From positions 6,358 to 41,301 of the forward strand of contig JAJBUL010000281.1 in assembly GCA_020860365.1 (NCBI GenBank): DNA of 34,944 nt. Direction: 5' to 3'. Position numbers and translations under genes: made by a program. How positions within the stretch are numbered: the stretch's first letter is position 1; every line of letters begins with the position of its first letter. Source of the DNA: Clostridiales bacterium. GTDB lineage: Bacteria; Bacillota; Clostridia; Lachnospirales; Lachnospiraceae. Below the pieces are notes generated by a model. It did no database searches. It was given only the letters and a program-made list of their open reading frames with translations, and had not been told where the DNA came from. Of this stretch, positions 1 through 10,093 are shown piece by piece.

Positions 1-1761
<1,761 letters not shown>

Positions 1762-1859: not shown

Positions 1860-1921
1860 CGGTAAATTTTCGGGATTCAATAATTTCACGTCTGAGCATT
1901 TCACGTCTGATTTCAAACCAG

Positions 1922-3196
1922 TCAATTCTTTAAACATCCGATCGGCACAACACAAACCCCATCCGATCGGCGATAGGCATAGTCTCCGGTACCTGTCAGT
2001 ACCATTAGGAAAGAGGGAGCTTTCATTTTCGTGGTATCAATCTTGGACTGCAGTGTCCGCAGGGCCGCTGCCCCTTCCTCTATCAGCCTGTCACCGCCAA
2101 GCTTAATCTCCGTCAGACCATATTTCCCATTTCTCAGATGAATCACTGTGTCGCACTCCAGCCCATCCCTGTCACGGTAGTGATAGACGGAACCATTTAT
2201 AGCTTCTGCATAAACACGGAGATCTCTCACACACAAAGTTTCAAACAGAAATCCAAACGTCTTTAAATCAGAAAGAAGATCCTCCGGACCAACTCCAAGG
2301 GCGGCTGTAGCAATAGACGGATCAATGTAATAACGGGTATCAGCGGAACGGATCGCGGTTTTCGAGCGAAGATTCGGATTCCATGCCGGCATGTCTTCTA
2401 CTACAAAAATTTTTCTAAGAGCGCTCAAATATGAGGCGACTGTCTCTTGATTTACCGCTCCCTCGCTATTTCCAGCAGTATCCTGTGCAATCACGGTATT
2501 CGGTACCTGGCTTCCCTGATTTCTGGCGTAAGAGCGCATCAGCCTCGTTACTCGCTCAGGATCTTTGCGAATATTGTCTGCACGGTTGATGTCCGAATGA
2601 ACAACCGCTTCATAATAATCATACGCCTGGTCCAGAGCAATCTCGTCGCGCATACCAATTGCCTGCGGCCATCCACCGCGACAGACAGAAAAAGCCAGAC
2701 GTTCAATATCCATACTGGAAGCGCCATCGATCTCATTCTTCTCCTCAAAGAGTTCTTTCAGGCTGACATCACCTGTAGACTCGCCGGATTCAAATAAAGT
2801 CATTGGCCGCATAGTAAGCCAGGTAAATCTGCCTGTTCCAGAATGCGTAATATCTTTGGTATCAGGTGGAACGGCGGAACCCGTAAGAAGGAACTGCCCC
2901 ATCTCCCCGCGGTGATCCACTTCAAACCGAATGGCATCCCATAGCTTTGGGGCAAGCTGCCATTCATCGATCAGACGCGGGGTTTCACCTTTCAGCAAAC
3001 GGCCGGGACTCAATTCGGACATCGTTATGTTCTGTTCTTTTTTCTCAGGGTCATCCATATAAAGAACGCTTTGGGCAATCTGCTCTGCTGTAGTCGTTTT
3101 GCCGCACCATTTCGGTCCTTCAATCAGCACCGCGCCCTTTCCTTCCAGCTTTCTGGCTAAGATGTCATCTGCAATCCTTTTTCTATATTCTTTCAT
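1922..3196 (-). CDS. AAA family ATPase with DUF4143 domain
   Basis: MKEYRKRIADDILARKLEGKGAVLIEGPKWCGKTTTAEQIAQSVLYMDDPE...LIDEWQLAPKLWDAIRFEVD...FLLTGSAVPP: Walker A GPKWCGKTT and DEWQ Walker B. RBS AAGGAG sits before the ATG at 3196, so the ORF track start (3319) is probably too long. Confidence 0.85.
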   Translation of the reverse strand: MKEYRKRIADDILARKLEGKGAVLIEGPKWCGKTTTAEQIAQSVLYMDDPEKKEQNITMSELSPGRLLKGETPRLIDEWQLAPKLWDAIRFEVDHRGEMGQFLLTGSAVPPDTKDITHSGTGRFTWLTMRPMTLFESGESTGDVSLKELFEEKNEIDGASSMDIERLAFSVCRGGWPQAIGMRDEIALDQAYDYYEAVVHSDINRADNIRKDPERVTRLMRSYARNQGSQVPNTVIAQDTAGNSEGAVNQETVASYLSALRKIFVVEDMPAWNPNLRSKTAIRSADTRYYIDPSIATAALGVGPEDLLSDLKTFGFLFETLCVRDLRVYAEAINGSVYHYRDRDGLECDTVIHLRNGKYGLTEIKLGGDRLIEEGAAALRTLQSKIDTTKMKAPSFLMVLTGTGDYAYRRSDGVCVVPIGCLKN

Positions 3197-3305
3197 AAAC
3201 GGTACTCCTTCCATGTTCAATGGAAACATATAATTTTGCAGGAAAAATCTGCGCCGCATTGCTTTCTCTCGATGCGGTTCTGAATTGCTGCCAGTATTCT
3301 CATTT

Positions 3306-3334
3306 ATTATAGTATACATAAATCAAAAGCACAA
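3306..3334 (-). promoter_or_regulatory. Putative promoter of the DUF4143 ATPase gene
   Basis: Minus strand TTGTGC - 17 nt - TATAAT. Confidence 0.65.
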
Positions 3335-3340
3335 GCTGCA

Positions 3341-3524
3341 ATCCGATAATAGTCATTCATTTGCTCCGATGTTTTGCTTGAAAGAAGACCTATGATTCGA
3401 AAATATATGTTCCTATGAATAGTGCATTTTTATTCCGATGAATAGCAGTTTTTTATTCCGATAAATAGAAACTTTATATTGCGATGATTAGCATCTTTTC
3501 ATTCCGATGTTTTCTTATATTGAC
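3341..3524. repeat. Degenerate tandem repeat array, eight units of exactly 23 bp, core TTCCGATGAATAG
   Basis: Units start at 3341, 3364, 3387, 3410, 3433, 3456, 3479 and 3502; the first ~13 nt of each unit is conserved and the last ~10 nt is AT-rich and variable. Confidence 0.88.
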
Positions 3525-3548
3525 ATCCCGTTCTCTCAGTTTTAAAAT
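3520..3548 (+). promoter_or_regulatory. Putative promoter of pyrC
   Basis: TTGACA - 17 nt - TAAAAT, upstream of pyrC. Confidence 0.6.
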
Positions 3549-3644
3549 AAGCTGCAAAGGTTTGCCAACGCCATACCCAGTCAAGTTCTCTATGGCAGCC
3601 TTTTTAAGTCTCAGCAGAATCTGTCAGAAAAGGAGCATATTCCC

Positions 3645-4955
3645 ATGATTATCAAAAACGGTACTATACTATCCCCCGGTACGCAGGAAGCATATTCGGC
3701 GGATCTGCGGATCACAAATGGTCTGATTGCCGGAATTGCCAGCCCCGGATCTCTCTCCCCGGATTCCGATGAAGAAGAAGTCCTGGATGCTACCTCTTGC
3801 GTGATCGCTCCTGGGCTGATTGACGTTCATGTGCATTTTCGCGATCCCGGCTTTACCTGGAAAGAAGATCTGCACACCGGCGCACGCGCTGCCGCCGCAG
3901 GAGGCTTTACCACCGTTATCTGCATGGCAAACACGAAGCCGCCGGTCGATCACCCGGATACCCTCTCTGATCTCCTTCTACGCGCACAAAAGGAAGCCAT
4001 CCGCATTCGTTTCACCGCTGCTGTCACCAAAGGTCTCGCGGGAAAGGAACTGACCGATTTTGAAACTCTTGCCGGACTCGGCGCATGCGGTTTCACTGAT
4101 GATGGGATTCCGTTGATCAACGAAAAGCTGACCGAGCAGGCCATGCGCCGGGCAAAAGCACTCGGACTGCCGCTCTCCTTCCACGAAGAAGATCCTGCTT
4201 TTATCGAAAAAGCCGGCACAAACCGCACCGCGCCCGCGGTCGCCGAAGATGTTCTGGTTGCCCGCGACTGCATGTTATCCAGATATACAGGAGCAGTCAT
4301 TAACATCCAGCACATCAGCTCCGGAGCCTCTGTCGCGCTCGTGCGTACAGCCAAAGCCCTGGGTGCTCCTGTATTCGCAGAGGCGACGCCACACCATTTT
4401 TCACTGACCGAAGAAGCGGTTGAAAAATTCGGAACCTGTGCAAAAATGAATCCGCCGCTGCGGACAGAGGCGGATCGCCAGGCAATCATTGAAGGACTAA
4501 AAGACGGCACGATCGATATCATCGCAACCGACCACGCGCCCCACAGCACAGCGGAAAAGCAGAAGGAAGACTTCTTCGCAGCGCCTAGCGGCATCATCGG
4601 ACTTGAGACCTCCCTTGGCCTTGGCATCACAAACCTCGTAAAGCCCGGCCATCTCACGCTGATGCAGCTGCTTGAAAAAATGACGGTCAATCCGGCCCGT
4701 CTCTACCGGATCAACACACAGGCAATGCCTGGTATGGGATCCGAGGCATCGCTCTATGGTTCTATACTACCCGGCCGTGTGGCAGACCTCGTCATCTTCA
4801 ACCCGGACGAAGCCTTTACAGCGGGCAATTACCAGTCCAAATCCGAAAACTCACCCTTCACCGGGATGGAACTTCATGGAAAAATCCACTATACCATCTG
4901 CGCCGGACAAATTGCGTGGGACTCCTCAAAGCACACGGACCGGCCTTGCGCATAA
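3645..4955 (+). CDS. pyrC: Dihydroorotase
   Basis: MIIKNGTILSPGTQEAYSADLRI...GLIDVHVHFRDPGFTWKEDLHTGARAAAAGGFTTVICMANTKP...ATDHAPH; metal-binding HVHFRDPG motif. Confidence 0.96.
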   Translation: MIIKNGTILSPGTQEAYSADLRITNGLIAGIASPGSLSPDSDEEEVLDATSCVIAPGLIDVHVHFRDPGFTWKEDLHTGARAAAAGGFTTVICMANTKPPVDHPDTLSDLLLRAQKEAIRIRFTAAVTKGLAGKELTDFETLAGLGACGFTDDGIPLINEKLTEQAMRRAKALGLPLSFHEEDPAFIEKAGTNRTAPAVAEDVLVARDCMLSRYTGAVINIQHISSGASVALVRTAKALGAPVFAEATPHHFSLTEEAVEKFGTCAKMNPPLRTEADRQAIIEGLKDGTIDIIATDHAPHSTAEKQKEDFFAAPSGIIGLETSLGLGITNLVKPGHLTLMQLLEKMTVNPARLYRINTQAMPGMGSEASLYGSILPGRVADLVIFNPDEAFTAGNYQSKSENSPFTGMELHGKIHYTICAGQIAWDSSKHTDRPCA

Positions 4956-5521: not shown

Positions 5522-8500
5522 TCACTCCATCATATCAAAGATCGACAACTGATTCGTCTCCGGCAGCCCGTCGAGGATTTTGAGATCAACGAGCAGATCC
5601 GTCATCGTCTTCCCGACCTTGGCGCGCGTCATGAAATCATCCTTTGAGAGGAATGGCCCGTCCTTGCAGGCGTCCACGATGGATGCGGCCGCCTTATCGC
5701 CCAGTCCGGAGATGGAGCTTAAGGACGGCATGATGTCATTCCCGACAATCTGGAAGCGCGTCGCCTGCGCCTTGTAAATATCAATCGGCACAAAATTCAG
5801 CCCCCGCGCGTACATCTCCAGCACGCTCTTCATATCTTTATAGGTATCCTGTTCCTTCTTGCTCAGGGTATCCATACGTTTTTCAAAATCCGCCATATGG
5901 TAGAGCAGCTTTTCTTTTCCCAGACACATCAGTTCATAATCAAAGCCCGACGCGCGGATGCTGAAATACGCGGCATAATAAGCCTGCGGATAATTGATCT
6001 TGCAGTACGCGATACGCCACGCCATCATCACGTATGCCGCTGCGTGCGCTTTCGGAAACATGTATTTGATCTTTTTACAGGACCAGATATACCAGTCCGG
6101 CACGTCGTGCGCGATCATCTCTTCTTCCCACTCCGGCTTCAGGCCTTTACCCTTGCGGACGCTCTCCATGATGGTAAAGGATAGTTCACTGTCCATGCCC
6201 TTGCTGATCAGATAGATCATGATATCGTCTCGGGTACAGATCGCCGTGGAAATGGTCGCCTTCCCTTCCTGGATCAGCGTCTGTGCGTTGCCCAGCCACA
6301 CATCGGTACCGTGCGCCAGTCCGGCGATGCGGACGAGATCAGAAAAATATTTCGGTTTTGTGTCAATCAGCATCTGCATGGCGAACTCAGTGCCAAACTC
6401 TGGAATGCCCAGAGAGCCGAGCGGCACGCCGCCGATGTCGTCCGGCGTAATCCCCAGCGCTTCCGTGCTCGTAAACAGGGACATGACTCCCGGGTCATCC
6501 AGAGGAATGTCTTTCGGATCCAGCCCCGTCAGATCCTGCAGCATACGGATCATGGTCGGATCATCGTGTCCGAGAATGTCAAGCTTGAGCAGGTTGTGGT
6601 CAATCGAGTGATAGTCAAAATGCGTCGTCACGATGTCCGTCGTCATATCGTTCGCCGGATGCTGCACCGGCGTAAAGGAATAAATCTCATCCCCGATCGG
6701 CAGGACAATGATTCCGCCCGGATGCTGCCCGGTCGTCCGGCGCACGCCGACACAGCCCTGTACAATACGGTCAATCTCACAGTTTCGCTTATGGACATTG
6801 CGTTCTTCAAAATAGTTTTTCACATATCCGAACGCTGTCTTATCCGCCAGTGTGCCGATCGTCCCGGCGCGGAAGGTCTGTCCCGCCCCGAATATAACTT
6901 CCGTATACTTATGTGCCTTACTCTGGTATTCACCGGAGAAGTTCAGGTCAATATCCGGCTCCTTGTTTCCCTTAAATCCCAGGAACGTCTCAAACGGAAT
7001 ATCAAACCCTTCCTTTTTCAGCTTTGTGCCGCAGTTCGGACAGATTTTGTCCGGCATGTCGCAGCCGGCCATACCGGCATACTTTTTGACTTCCTCCGAA
7101 TCAAAATCACTGTAATGGCAGTTTGGACAGATATAATGCGGACTTAACGGATTGACCTCTGTGATTCCGGACATCGTCGCCACAAAGGACGAACCGACCG
7201 AGCCTCGCGAGCCAACCAGATACCCATCCGCGTTTGATTTCCACACCAGCTTCTGCGCAATAATATACATGACGGCAAAGCCGTTGGAAATGATGGAATT
7301 CAGCTCACGCTCCAGCCGCTCCGATACAATCGGCGGCAAATCCTCTCCGTAAATCTCATGCGCTTTCTCATAGCACAGATTTCGCAGAATCTGATCCGAG
7401 TTCTCGATGACAGGCGGACATTTATCCGGACGTACCGGAGAAATCCGCTCACACATATCCGCGATTTTATTGGTATTTGTGACGACAACCTCGTAGGCCT
7501 TTTCTTCCCCAAGGTATGTAAATTCCTGCAGCATCTCTTCCGTCGTGCGCAGATAAAGAGGTGCCTGCTCATCGGAATCCTTAAACCCGCGGCTTCCCAT
7601 GATGATCCGCCGGTAAATCTCATCCTGCGGATCCAGAAAGTGGACGTCGCAGGTGGCCACGACTGGCTTATGGTACTGCTCTCCCAGCTCCACAATCCGG
7701 CGGTTCAGATCCTGCAGCTCTTCTACTGTCTTGCGATCCTCATAGTCTTCCCGGGTCATAAACATGTTATTGCCAAGCGGCTGAATCTCCAGATAGTCAT
7801 AAAACTCGACCAGCCGGGCAATCTCCGGCGCGGAAGCGCCGCGGACCAGAGCCCGGTACAGCTCTCCCGCCTCACAGGCAGAACCAAGCAGCAGTCCCTC
7901 CCGGTACTGTTCCAGCACACTTTTGGGAATGCGCGGATGGCGGTTGTAGTAATCAATGTGCGACCATGATACCAGCCGATACAGATTCGTCCGCCCGACC
8001 TCATTCGCAGCCAGTATAATCGCATGGTAGGTTGGCAGCTTTTTGATCTGATCCTTCGACGAATGCCCCAGCTCATTGAGCTGCGCAAGTGTCGTAATTT
8101 CCCGTTTGCGGAGCATCCCTAAGAATTTTTCAAAAATCTCCGCCGTACATCCCGCATCGTCTACCGCGCGGTGATGATGCCCCAGCGGCACACCGACTGC
8201 TTTCGCGACCGTGTCCAGCTTGAACCGGTTCAGGGCTGGAAGCAGCACACGCGCCATCGCCACCGTATCCACCGCCGTCTTATCACAGGGGATGGACAGC
8301 CTGCGGCAGTTTTCTTCGATAAAGCTCATATCAAAGGAGGCGTTGTGCGCTACCATCACACAACCCTCGCTAAATTCCATAAATTCCGGCAGAATCGTTT
8401 CAATCGTGGGCGCGTCCATGACCATGTTGTCATTGATACTGGTCAGTTCTTCAATCCGGAAGGGGATCGGAACCTGAGGATTGACAAAGGTGCTGAATTT

Positions 8501-10093
8501 GTCCGTAATCTTTCCATTCTGCACTTTCACCGCGCCAATCTCAATGATCCGGTTGTTCTGCGGAGAAAATCCAGTTGTCTCCAGATCGAAGACAACAAAA
8601 TCTGCGTCCAGGTCCTGCCCCTTTTCATTAACCGCAATTTCTTTCTGATCATCCACAAGATAAGCTTCTACCCCGTAGATGACCTTAAAATCGCTGTCCT
8701 TCGGCACAGCATGATTCGCGTCCGGGAAGGCCTGTACCGCTCCATGGTCCGTAATCGCAAGCGCCTTATGTCCCCAACTGATCGCCCGCGCAATAATGTC
8801 TTTCACATCCGAGACGCCATCCATATCGCTCATCTTGGTATGGCAGTGCAGCTCCACACGTTTTTCAATGGCATTGTCGGCACGCCTGACGCGAAAGTCC
8901 GCAATCTTTTTGATTCCCTGGACATTGCCGATCGTCAGCTGACTGTCAAACCGGTCAATCGTCGTCACGCCGCTGATCATCAGAAAAGCGCCCTTCGTGA
9001 CAGCGGGAGCGATCTCTTCCGCCTGTTCCTTTGTCAGAAACATTTTGACATTGATCGAGTCCGTAAAGTCTGTAATTGTGAAAATGAAAAGGATTTTCCC
9101 AATCCGCAGCTCCCTCTGCTCCACATTGAGTACCTGTCCGCGGAGCAGTACGCTGCCGATCTCACCGGTCACCGTCTCAATCGATATCGGTTCTCCCTCA
9201 AAATCTCTTCCATATATCACTTCCGGGTTGTCCGAACGGCGAAAACCGCCCGCGCGATCCCGATAGAAGCCACCTCCGGCTTTGTTCGGGTCTTTTGGAA
9301 ACTTCCCGGCAGAAGCATTTCCACGGTTGTCCGTTCCACGCAAGCCACTGTTTTCCCCGCCAGAGAAGGATTTGCCCGGCGCGCCCCCTTTCGAAGCGTA
9401 TTTTGCTCCATCCTTCGCTGCAGTTTTTTCCCTGCCATTCGCTGCACGTTTTGCATAGCTGTCCGATCTCTGGGCATCCTGACTGCCATTCTCCTCTTCG
9501 TCCGCTCTGACCCGGGCATAGTTCCTGGAGATTGCCGCCACCTCCTGCTCCAGTTCCAGTTCAGCCTGTTCACGTTTCCGGTTTCTTATCGGTTTTGTCC
9601 GCTCGGAGCTCACATGAAAATTCATTCCGCAGCGTTCGCAGAATATTTTTTCCAGAATCTCCAGCAGTTCCTTCTCTTTTCCATCCGCGACCACAGAATC
9701 GGGAATCTGAAGCTTTAACGTGTCCTCATCTGTAAATTCTTTGTTAGACTGGACAAACAGCGTATAGAGGAGCGCATTATAGTTTTTCAGCTCCAGGGAA
9801 ATACTTTCCTCGTAAATCGGCATCAGACGCTTAGGCGTATATTGCCTGGAAAGGTGAAATTTTTCAATTACCTTCACGGTCAGATAAGCATCCGGAAAAA
9901 GCTGGTTTTTGATATCATCCTCCAGCTCCAGCACGTATTTCTTAAAAACAAGCCGGTCACTCGCGATATAAACGTGCATAAAGTCCCGTCGGCTGTTCAT
10001 CGTCACACGCTCAACCGTCACGTATTCCAATAGACCCGCCAGAGAATCACTCACATCCAGAGCCGGAAACACATCTGTAAATGACTTACTCAA
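5522..10093 (-). CDS. polC: DNA polymerase III subunit alpha, PolC type
   Basis: 1523 aa; PHP domain (ELHCHTKMSDMDGVSDVKDII), DEDD exonuclease (FVVFDLETTGFSPQNNRIIEIGAVKV), Zn motif CPNCHYSDF...CPNCGTKL, catalytic PDIDLNFSGEYQ. Confidence 0.97.
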   Translation of the reverse strand: MSKSFTDVFPALDVSDSLAGLLEYVTVERVTMNSRRDFMHVYIASDRLVFKKYVLELEDDIKNQLFPDAYLTVKVIEKFHLSRQYTPKRLMPIYEESISLELKNYNALLYTLFVQSNKEFTDEDTLKLQIPDSVVADGKEKELLEILEKIFCERCGMNFHVSSERTKPIRNRKREQAELELEQEVAAISRNYARVRADEEENGSQDAQRSDSYAKRAANGREKTAAKDGAKYASKGGAPGKSFSGGENSGLRGTDNRGNASAGKFPKDPNKAGGGFYRDRAGGFRRSDNPEVIYGRDFEGEPISIETVTGEIGSVLLRGQVLNVEQRELRIGKILFIFTITDFTDSINVKMFLTKEQAEEIAPAVTKGAFLMISGVTTIDRFDSQLTIGNVQGIKKIADFRVRRADNAIEKRVELHCHTKMSDMDGVSDVKDIIARAISWGHKALAITDHGAVQAFPDANHAVPKDSDFKVIYGVEAYLVDDQKEIAVNEKGQDLDADFVVFDLETTGFSPQNNRIIEIGAVKVQNGKITDKFSTFVNPQVPIPFRIEELTSINDNMVMDAPTIETILPEFMEFSEGCVMVAHNASFDMSFIEENCRRLSIPCDKTAVDTVAMARVLLPALNRFKLDTVAKAVGVPLGHHHRAVDDAGCTAEIFEKFLGMLRKREITTLAQLNELGHSSKDQIKKLPTYHAIILAANEVGRTNLYRLVSWSHIDYYNRHPRIPKSVLEQYREGLLLGSACEAGELYRALVRGASAPEIARLVEFYDYLEIQPLGNNMFMTREDYEDRKTVEELQDLNRRIVELGEQYHKPVVATCDVHFLDPQDEIYRRIIMGSRGFKDSDEQAPLYLRTTEEMLQEFTYLGEEKAYEVVVTNTNKIADMCERISPVRPDKCPPVIENSDQILRNLCYEKAHEIYGEDLPPIVSERLERELNSIISNGFAVMYIIAQKLVWKSNADGYLVGSRGSVGSSFVATMSGITEVNPLSPHYICPNCHYSDFDSEEVKKYAGMAGCDMPDKICPNCGTKLKKEGFDIPFETFLGFKGNKEPDIDLNFSGEYQSKAHKYTEVIFGAGQTFRAGTIGTLADKTAFGYVKNYFEERNVHKRNCEIDRIVQGCVGVRRTTGQHPGGIIVLPIGDEIYSFTPVQHPANDMTTDIVTTHFDYHSIDHNLLKLDILGHDDPTMIRMLQDLTGLDPKDIPLDDPGVMSLFTSTEALGITPDDIGGVPLGSLGIPEFGTEFAMQMLIDTKPKYFSDLVRIAGLAHGTDVWLGNAQTLIQEGKATISTAICTRDDIMIYLISKGMDSELSFTIMESVRKGKGLKPEWEEEMIAHDVPDWYIWSCKKIKYMFPKAHAAAYVMMAWRIAYCKINYPQAYYAAYFSIRASGFDYELMCLGKEKLLYHMADFEKRMDTLSKKEQDTYKDMKSVLEMYARGLNFVPIDIYKAQATRFQIVGNDIMPSLSSISGLGDKAAASIVDACKDGPFLSKDDFMTRAKVGKTMTDLLVDLKILDGLPETNQLSIFDMME

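Follow-up and report, generated by a model that had tools for sequence, protein, structure and literature searches.

A phased 23-bp repeat array as the probable private operator of a DUF4143 ATPase gene inserted beside pyrC in a Lachnospiraceae genome

A stretch of 34,944 nucleotides (nt) from a Lachnospiraceae genome (Clostridiales bacterium, assembly GCA_020860365.1, contig JAJBUL010000281.1, positions 6,358 to 41,301; referred to as the window) carries an array of direct repeats with a period of 23 base pairs (bp) between a DUF4143 ATPase gene and the dihydroorotase gene pyrC. The array is interpreted here as the private operator of the ATPase gene, to which the ATPase would bind cooperatively, most likely repressing its own promoter, and a probability of about 70% is assigned to this interpretation on the basis of sequence comparison. 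Phased arrays precede related ATPase genes in several phyla, and their core bases co-vary with a residue in what is predicted to be the recognition helix of the ATPase itself. The elements central to the argument are as follows.

3341 to 3524, minus strand: direct-repeat array of 23-bp period, eight in-phase units, a diverged version of the family core GCCAATCGTCGGAA
1922 to 3196, minus strand: coding sequence of the DUF4143 ATPase, 424 amino acids, with an AAA_14 P-loop ATPase domain, a winged helix and a C-terminal PD-(D/E)XK-like domain (from Pfam, PADLOC, alignments and AlphaFold2)
3306 to 3334, minus strand: ATPase promoter adjoining the last unit, with -35 TTGTGC (3329-3334), a 17-bp spacer and -10 TATAAT (3306-3311)

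The eight units proposed in the earlier note were recovered in phase, with starts at 3341, 3364, 3387, 3410, 3433, 3456, 3479, and 3502. The array had been called exact, which holds for its period but not for its units, only four to five of the eight being well conserved. Compared with itself, the array matches at 56% of positions at a lag of 23 and at 53% at a lag of 46, every other lag giving 38% or less; in spans of 140 positions, lag 23 yields 88 matches, against a maximum of 66 over 1000 first-order shuffles and of 54 elsewhere in the window. On the sense strand of the ATPase gene the unit, which has diverged from the family core, approximates GCTATTCATCGGAATAAAAAnnn. Units 4 to 7 match TTCCGATGAATAG at 12, 13, 12, and 11 of 13 positions and units 1, 2, 3, and 8 at 7, 9, 8, and 9, unit 1 having lost one base of its core, while Tandem Repeats Finder scores only positions 3410 to 3509 (4.3 copies, 76% matches). 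A sister species (G065, L139), whose ATPase is 97% identical, shares the array but with exactly one 23-bp unit fewer.

The tie between array and gene was established with 80 homologous loci at 70-85% identity, many of them from metagenome bins, which span several phyla and include Lachnospiraceae, Oscillospiraceae, Mogibacterium, Gardnerella, and the spirochaete Bullifex, among others; the named strains Bullifex porci, Mogibacterium kristiansenii, and Gardnerella PSS_7772B carry the array alike. Upstream of the ATPase gene the best period is 23 bp (69 loci) or 46 bp (four loci) in 73 of 78 regions, whereas among the controls a lag of 23 comes out best in only 1 of 77 regions downstream, in 1 of 63 far upstream, in none of 80 inside the gene, and in 1 of 78 after shuffling. 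A profile of the core GCCAATCGTCGGAA finds 278 units in phase and two out of phase, mostly with three to five units per locus. Conservation between loci is concentrated in two boxes, GCCAA and CGGAA, with per-position values mostly of 0.7-0.9 as against 0.3-0.5 for most of the linker. The sequences just beyond the array and just beyond the gene are similar in only 5 and 8 of 1378 pairs, respectively, while the gene is common to all loci, so the conserved unit is the gene together with its array, and the two move between genomes as one cassette. Fragments or broken copies of the ATPase family were also seen in four same-genus genomes (G014:C55, G023:C36, G031:C261, and G008:C14), pointing to rapid gain and loss. 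A phage origin was considered and rejected, as scans of IMG/VR with the array patterns and with the ATPase protein gave nothing; only seven unannotated faecal 'phage' records match the protein, and carriage by phages may be possible but not typical.

These comparisons also bear on whether the array is a neutral minisatellite produced by slippage. Whole units have been gained or lost between the sister species, and linkers of one locus resemble each other more (0.59) than those of different loci do (0.44), indicating turnover of units around a core that is retained. Slippage of this kind would not account for a core conserved between loci, for its phase and promoter register, or for its attachment to one gene family across phyla rather than to random loci, and as the sole explanation the minisatellite is refuted, with next to no probability left to it. 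Binding of an oligomeric protein to evenly spaced sites, as suggested in the earlier note, gains support from the phased arrays upstream of related genes.

The protein itself belongs to the DUF4143 family, with matches to PF13635 at 113.7 bits (cut-off 28.1) and to PF13173 at 52.6 bits (cut-off 27), both of which are also matched by all 55 of 55 family members. PADLOC returns a full-length match (residues 1-422, E-value 9.2e-65) to PDLC04790, the model of the candidate defence system PDC-S01, which remote array-bearing homologues match likewise. Its parts, all on the minus strand, are located as follows.

3095 to 3118, minus strand: Walker A motif GPKWCGKT, residues 27-34, with G27, G32, and K33 invariant in 62 homologues
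2327 to 2560, minus strand: predicted winged-helix DNA-binding region, residues ~213-290, with helices at 213-225, 233-241, and 250-262 (from AlphaFold2 and co-variation)
1994 to 2287, minus strand: C-terminal alpha-beta-beta-beta-alpha-beta domain, residues 304-401, with a PD-(D/E)XK nuclease-like signature
3205 to 3210, minus strand: ribosome-binding site AAGGAG ahead of the ATG at 3196

Translation probably starts at the ATG at 3196 behind AAGGAG and not at 3319. The AlphaFold2 model is confident, with a mean predicted local distance difference test of 90.6 and a predicted template-modelling score of 0.91. Its three helices and short strands can be read as a winged helix, and its C-terminal domain as a putative PD-(D/E)XK nuclease fold: the predicted elements at 311-332, 335-342, 347-354, 359-365, 369-385, and 396-401 follow the alpha-beta3-alpha-beta core, and E319, D349, and E363-x-K365 are invariant in the alignment. 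A sequence search of solved structures gave no match to the ATPase. The best solved structures found by Foldseek are remote and comprise the archaeal AAA+ protein 2FNA, plant nucleotide-binding leucine-rich repeat receptors, Orc1/Cdc6 on DNA, and MalT.

The ATPase had been put forward in the earlier note as a candidate ligand of the repeats, a proposal supported by the co-variation of residues and bases. Residue 251 (codon 2444-2446), at the start of the predicted recognition helix 250-262, comes out on top of 239 variable protein columns in its mutual information with core base 8, and likewise with bases 9, 10, 11, and 12. Glutamate at this residue pairs with CGG and aspartate with CCG; for base 11 the counts are 60 E/G, 0 E/C, 4 D/G, and 11 D/C. 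Helix-turn-helix columns take 16 of the 45 top places, against 12% expected. A tree built without these columns requires eight changes of residue 251 and seven of base 11, and none of 5000 simulations of independent base evolution reaches the observed association (0.43, as compared with a simulated maximum of 0.23), a p-value which is bounded by the number of runs and is not fully corrected, since the scan covered about 2150 residue-base pairs. The same pairing holds at loci that the scan did not include, with D and CCG in L141, L142, and L168 and E and CGG in L140 and L215; L139 agrees too, but is a near-twin of the window locus. This pattern gives strong, though indirect, evidence that the ATPase itself is the protein binding the repeats.

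The repeat sequence is moreover private to each ATPase subfamily. Same-genus homologues at 41-56% identity keep the 23-bp period exactly with sequences of their own, such as ACTAATAAAATCGGAAGTAAAAT (L146), AAAACATAAAATGAAATGCCGCA (L147), and AAAATCAATCGGGTTATAAATCC (L149). One genome (G062) holds four paralogues whose arrays all have a 23-bp period and each a different sequence, and the same period is found upstream of plasmid-borne homologues in Bacteroides, Collinsella, and Prosthecochloris; the genome of the window itself has 19 DUF4143 matches. With site sequences differing from one subfamily to the next, no cross-regulation is expected between paralogues that share a cell. A genome-wide regulon was excluded, the search of the window's own genome with the consensus (at most two mismatches) giving scattered single sites, with a cluster only at this array among the matches listed; in 12 other genomes searched for the 23-bp consensus, sites cluster at the gene only.

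An alternative ligand would be a different, host-encoded regulator, with the ATPase as merely the regulated gene, in keeping with arrays upstream of promoters usually binding dedicated regulators. However, the sites are private to ATPase subfamilies and travel with the ATPase across phyla, no other site clusters occur in the genomes searched, and the core bases are predicted best by a residue from the putative recognition helix of the ATPase itself, all of which make such a regulator improbable.

All rows of the tree labelled 23 bp fall within a single well-supported clade of 43 rows. A separate DUF4143 clade has arrays whose period of 32-33 bp exceeds that one by roughly a turn of the helix, seen at L133, L136, L137, L125, L193, L231, L255, L271, L275, and L277; their sequence differs per gene, and motifs such as AAAAATGTG recur in several of them. 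Repeats with a 40-bp period lie ~40-160 bp upstream of another type of DUF4143 gene (L261, L264), and each of their units reads as an almost perfect palindrome (CTGAAAGATTTT..AAAATCTTTCAG; CAACTTGGAAGTAGACTTCCAA), which hints at a version of the array theme bound by dimers. A Gardnerella genome (L268) has two copies of a 52-bp direct repeat (AAACACCGTTACTAACTCAG...) ~105-215 bp upstream of a DUF4143 gene.

The direction of control was approached through the register of the array with the promoter of the ATPase gene. In 70 of 79 loci the TTG of the -35 box lies 4-6 nt after the last core (58 at 5 nt), as compared with 6% of shuffles, and is followed mostly by a 17-bp spacer and a near-consensus -10, with -35 positions 4-6 poorly conserved. 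The repeated sites are thus in fixed register with the gene's own promoter, as expected of an autoregulatory operator array. Elsewhere in the family, the -35 lies under the last unit at L144, L145, and L219, and the promoter spacer is filled by that unit at L149, L150, L151, L255, and L260, several of these loci keeping an intact TTGACA or TATAAT. Many remote members show one or the other placement, often at a near-consensus promoter (L219, L145, L149, L151); the classification of overlaps was automatic and crude, the named example loci alone having been checked by eye. With the last unit on the -35 or in the spacer, the layout overall favours repression. A reading of CCGATAA as a sigma-28-like promoter was dropped once the consensus of the homologues was established.

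Several observations weigh against an array bound by the ATPase for self-repression. The window's own array is diverged at both ends, and many genes of other DUF4143 clades in the tree show no array by the period test. The co-variation, besides the bound on its p-value given above, includes four D/CGG exceptions and few independent switches, with only three pairs on well-supported branches. Within the subfamily of the window ATPase, the end of the last core is followed after 5 nt by a weak -35, a layout that suits an activator too, and TTGACA is matched at five or more positions in only 11 of 71 loci; for this subfamily alone, activation would fit as well as repression.

The same ligand could therefore act with the opposite sign, the ATPase activating its own promoter from the array in a positive feedback of the MalT type, that is, of the signal transduction ATPases with numerous domains (STAND), to give switch-like expression. 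The fixed distance between array and promoter in the window's subfamily, its near-consensus -10, and the degradation of its -35 beyond TTG are consistent with such activation, as is the presence of MalT and other STAND proteins among the remote fold-search matches. However, there are near-consensus promoters in other subfamilies whose -35 is covered, or whose spacer is occupied, by the last unit, a position from which a bound protein should obstruct the polymerase, and the register varies between subfamilies; activation is accordingly regarded as a minority possibility.

In the preferred reading of self-repression, copies of the ATPase would dock side by side through the winged helix on tandem sites exactly 23 bp apart, each site consisting of a short GCCAA box and a short CGGAA box separated by roughly one turn of the helix. 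The bound ATPases would form a cooperative head-to-tail row that reaches the -35 region and most likely represses the promoter of their own gene, keeping the level of an ATPase/PD-(D/E)XK protein that could do harm low and buffered until the ATPase is removed or titrated away by some factor. More speculatively, a general self-addressing system can be imagined in this very abundant family of defence candidates, in which each ATPase/nuclease binds a private phased array beside its gene, with a spacing set by its subfamily (23, ~33, and perhaps 40 bp) and a code of residues and bases that can be read. The array would then act, beyond self-repression, as sensor or as self-mark in a device for defence or competition, for instance one released when foreign DNA titrates the protein.

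The history of the locus was followed by comparison with relatives that have an empty site. The features concerned are the following.

1891 to 3627: inserted segment of 1737 bp comprising the ATPase gene, the array and a new pyrC promoter, in place of ~65 bp of empty site in relatives G010 and G035
3520 to 3548, plus strand: pyrC promoter, TTGACA (3520-3525), a 17-bp spacer and TAAAAT (3543-3548), possibly an affected bystander
3645 to 4955, plus strand: pyrC, dihydroorotase of the amidohydrolase family, a neighbour outside the system
868 to 1761, minus strand: pyrK-like gene for the electron-transfer subunit of dihydroorotate dehydrogenase B, a neighbour outside the system

The insertion is common to the window and the sister species (G065, L139), while the nearest same-genus genomes with adjoining pyrK and pyrC (L010, L011) have neither the ATPase gene nor the array, and the array was not found in any other same-genus pyrC upstream region inspected. 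Because pyrC relatives without the ATPase carry no array, a regulatory element of pyrC was ruled out, the significance attached in the earlier note to the divergent ATPase/pyrC setting is not borne out, and the divergent arrangement is taken as an accident of insertion. The -35 boxes placed there at 3329-3334 for the ATPase and at 3520-3525 for pyrC are both present as described. The latter overlaps the final 5 nt of unit 8, through which the ATPase might have an incidental effect on pyrC. The pyrC promoter of insertion-bearing species also differs from that of empty-site species.

Such a cassette might instead carry its array primarily as an origin-like or mobility element, with the ATPase as an Orc/initiator-like or targeting protein serving replication, insertion, or cassette self-recognition rather than transcription. 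Orc1/Cdc6-DNA complexes are among the remote structural matches, and the iteron-like layout and the transfer of the cassette would suit this role. By contrast, the register with the ATPase promoter is fixed, the array lies on one side of the gene only, and no terminal repeats or target duplication were noticed in the empty-site comparison, so that a function of this kind is rated marginally below even the host regulator. The term iteron-like used in the earlier note is apt for the layout only.

Among known systems, iteron-controlled replication initiators have a gene preceded by direct repeats of about 20 bp, which are bound by its winged-helix protein, often with self-repression. The system in the window differs in being chromosomal, with many paralogues, in belonging to another protein family, and in showing no sign of plasmid replication. 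STAND/MalT-type ATPase regulators and Orc1/Cdc6 likewise have a winged helix after a P-loop ATPase and show weak Foldseek similarity, but with TM-scores of 0.2-0.4, and the window ATPase has an extra C-terminal nuclease-like domain. The nearest functional parallel found, by analogy and with an unrelated protein, would be RptR, the repressor of a type I restriction-modification/DarTG2 defence island (PMC12255303). This defence-linked regulator represses its own promoter via three direct repeats over the promoter, and a glutamate of its recognition helix was modelled to contact cytosine (PMC12255303). RptR is, however, a 9-kDa dimer that binds 6-bp palindromes and regulates a separate system (PMC12255303), whereas the window protein is a 424-residue ATPase that has a nuclease-like domain and would control its own gene, acting through asymmetric sites spaced by 23 bp and different for each paralogue.

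PDC-S01 is described, in the passages on its domain make-up, as an ATPase fused to a PD-(D/E)-X-K superfamily domain (PMC12988326), and with respect to that description the window protein, a full-length match, shows no difference. In those on its distribution it is reported to rank fourth in frequency among defence (candidate) systems across prokaryotes (PMC12988326) and first among single loci in the rumen (PMC13356809); these passages make no mention of an operator array, a DNA target, or regulation. In the open-access literature on DUF4143, COG1373, AAA_14, and PDC-S01 (subscription papers and preprints lying outside this scope), no such arrays were found described, nor was any DNA target, trigger, or regulation of PDC-S01 found reported. 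Autoregulatory operator arrays are a known kind of element; private phase-fixed arrays across the DUF4143 family and a candidate specificity residue appear to be undescribed. With a candidate DNA target, a candidate specificity residue, and several different protein-site pairs inside single genomes, the biochemistry of PDC-S01 becomes directly testable, and the private arrays may supply a set of mutually independent repressor-operator pairs.

Two minor observations concern the surroundings of pyrC. In one locus (L024, G026:C324) the region upstream of pyrC holds long GC-rich tandem repeats (...GATGGTCAACGAGCAACGCAGTTGCGAGTAAGAA...) beside a run of N, which are unrelated to the 23-bp array. In the window, an open reading frame of 1523 amino acids lies downstream of pyrC on the minus strand, at 5522-10093.
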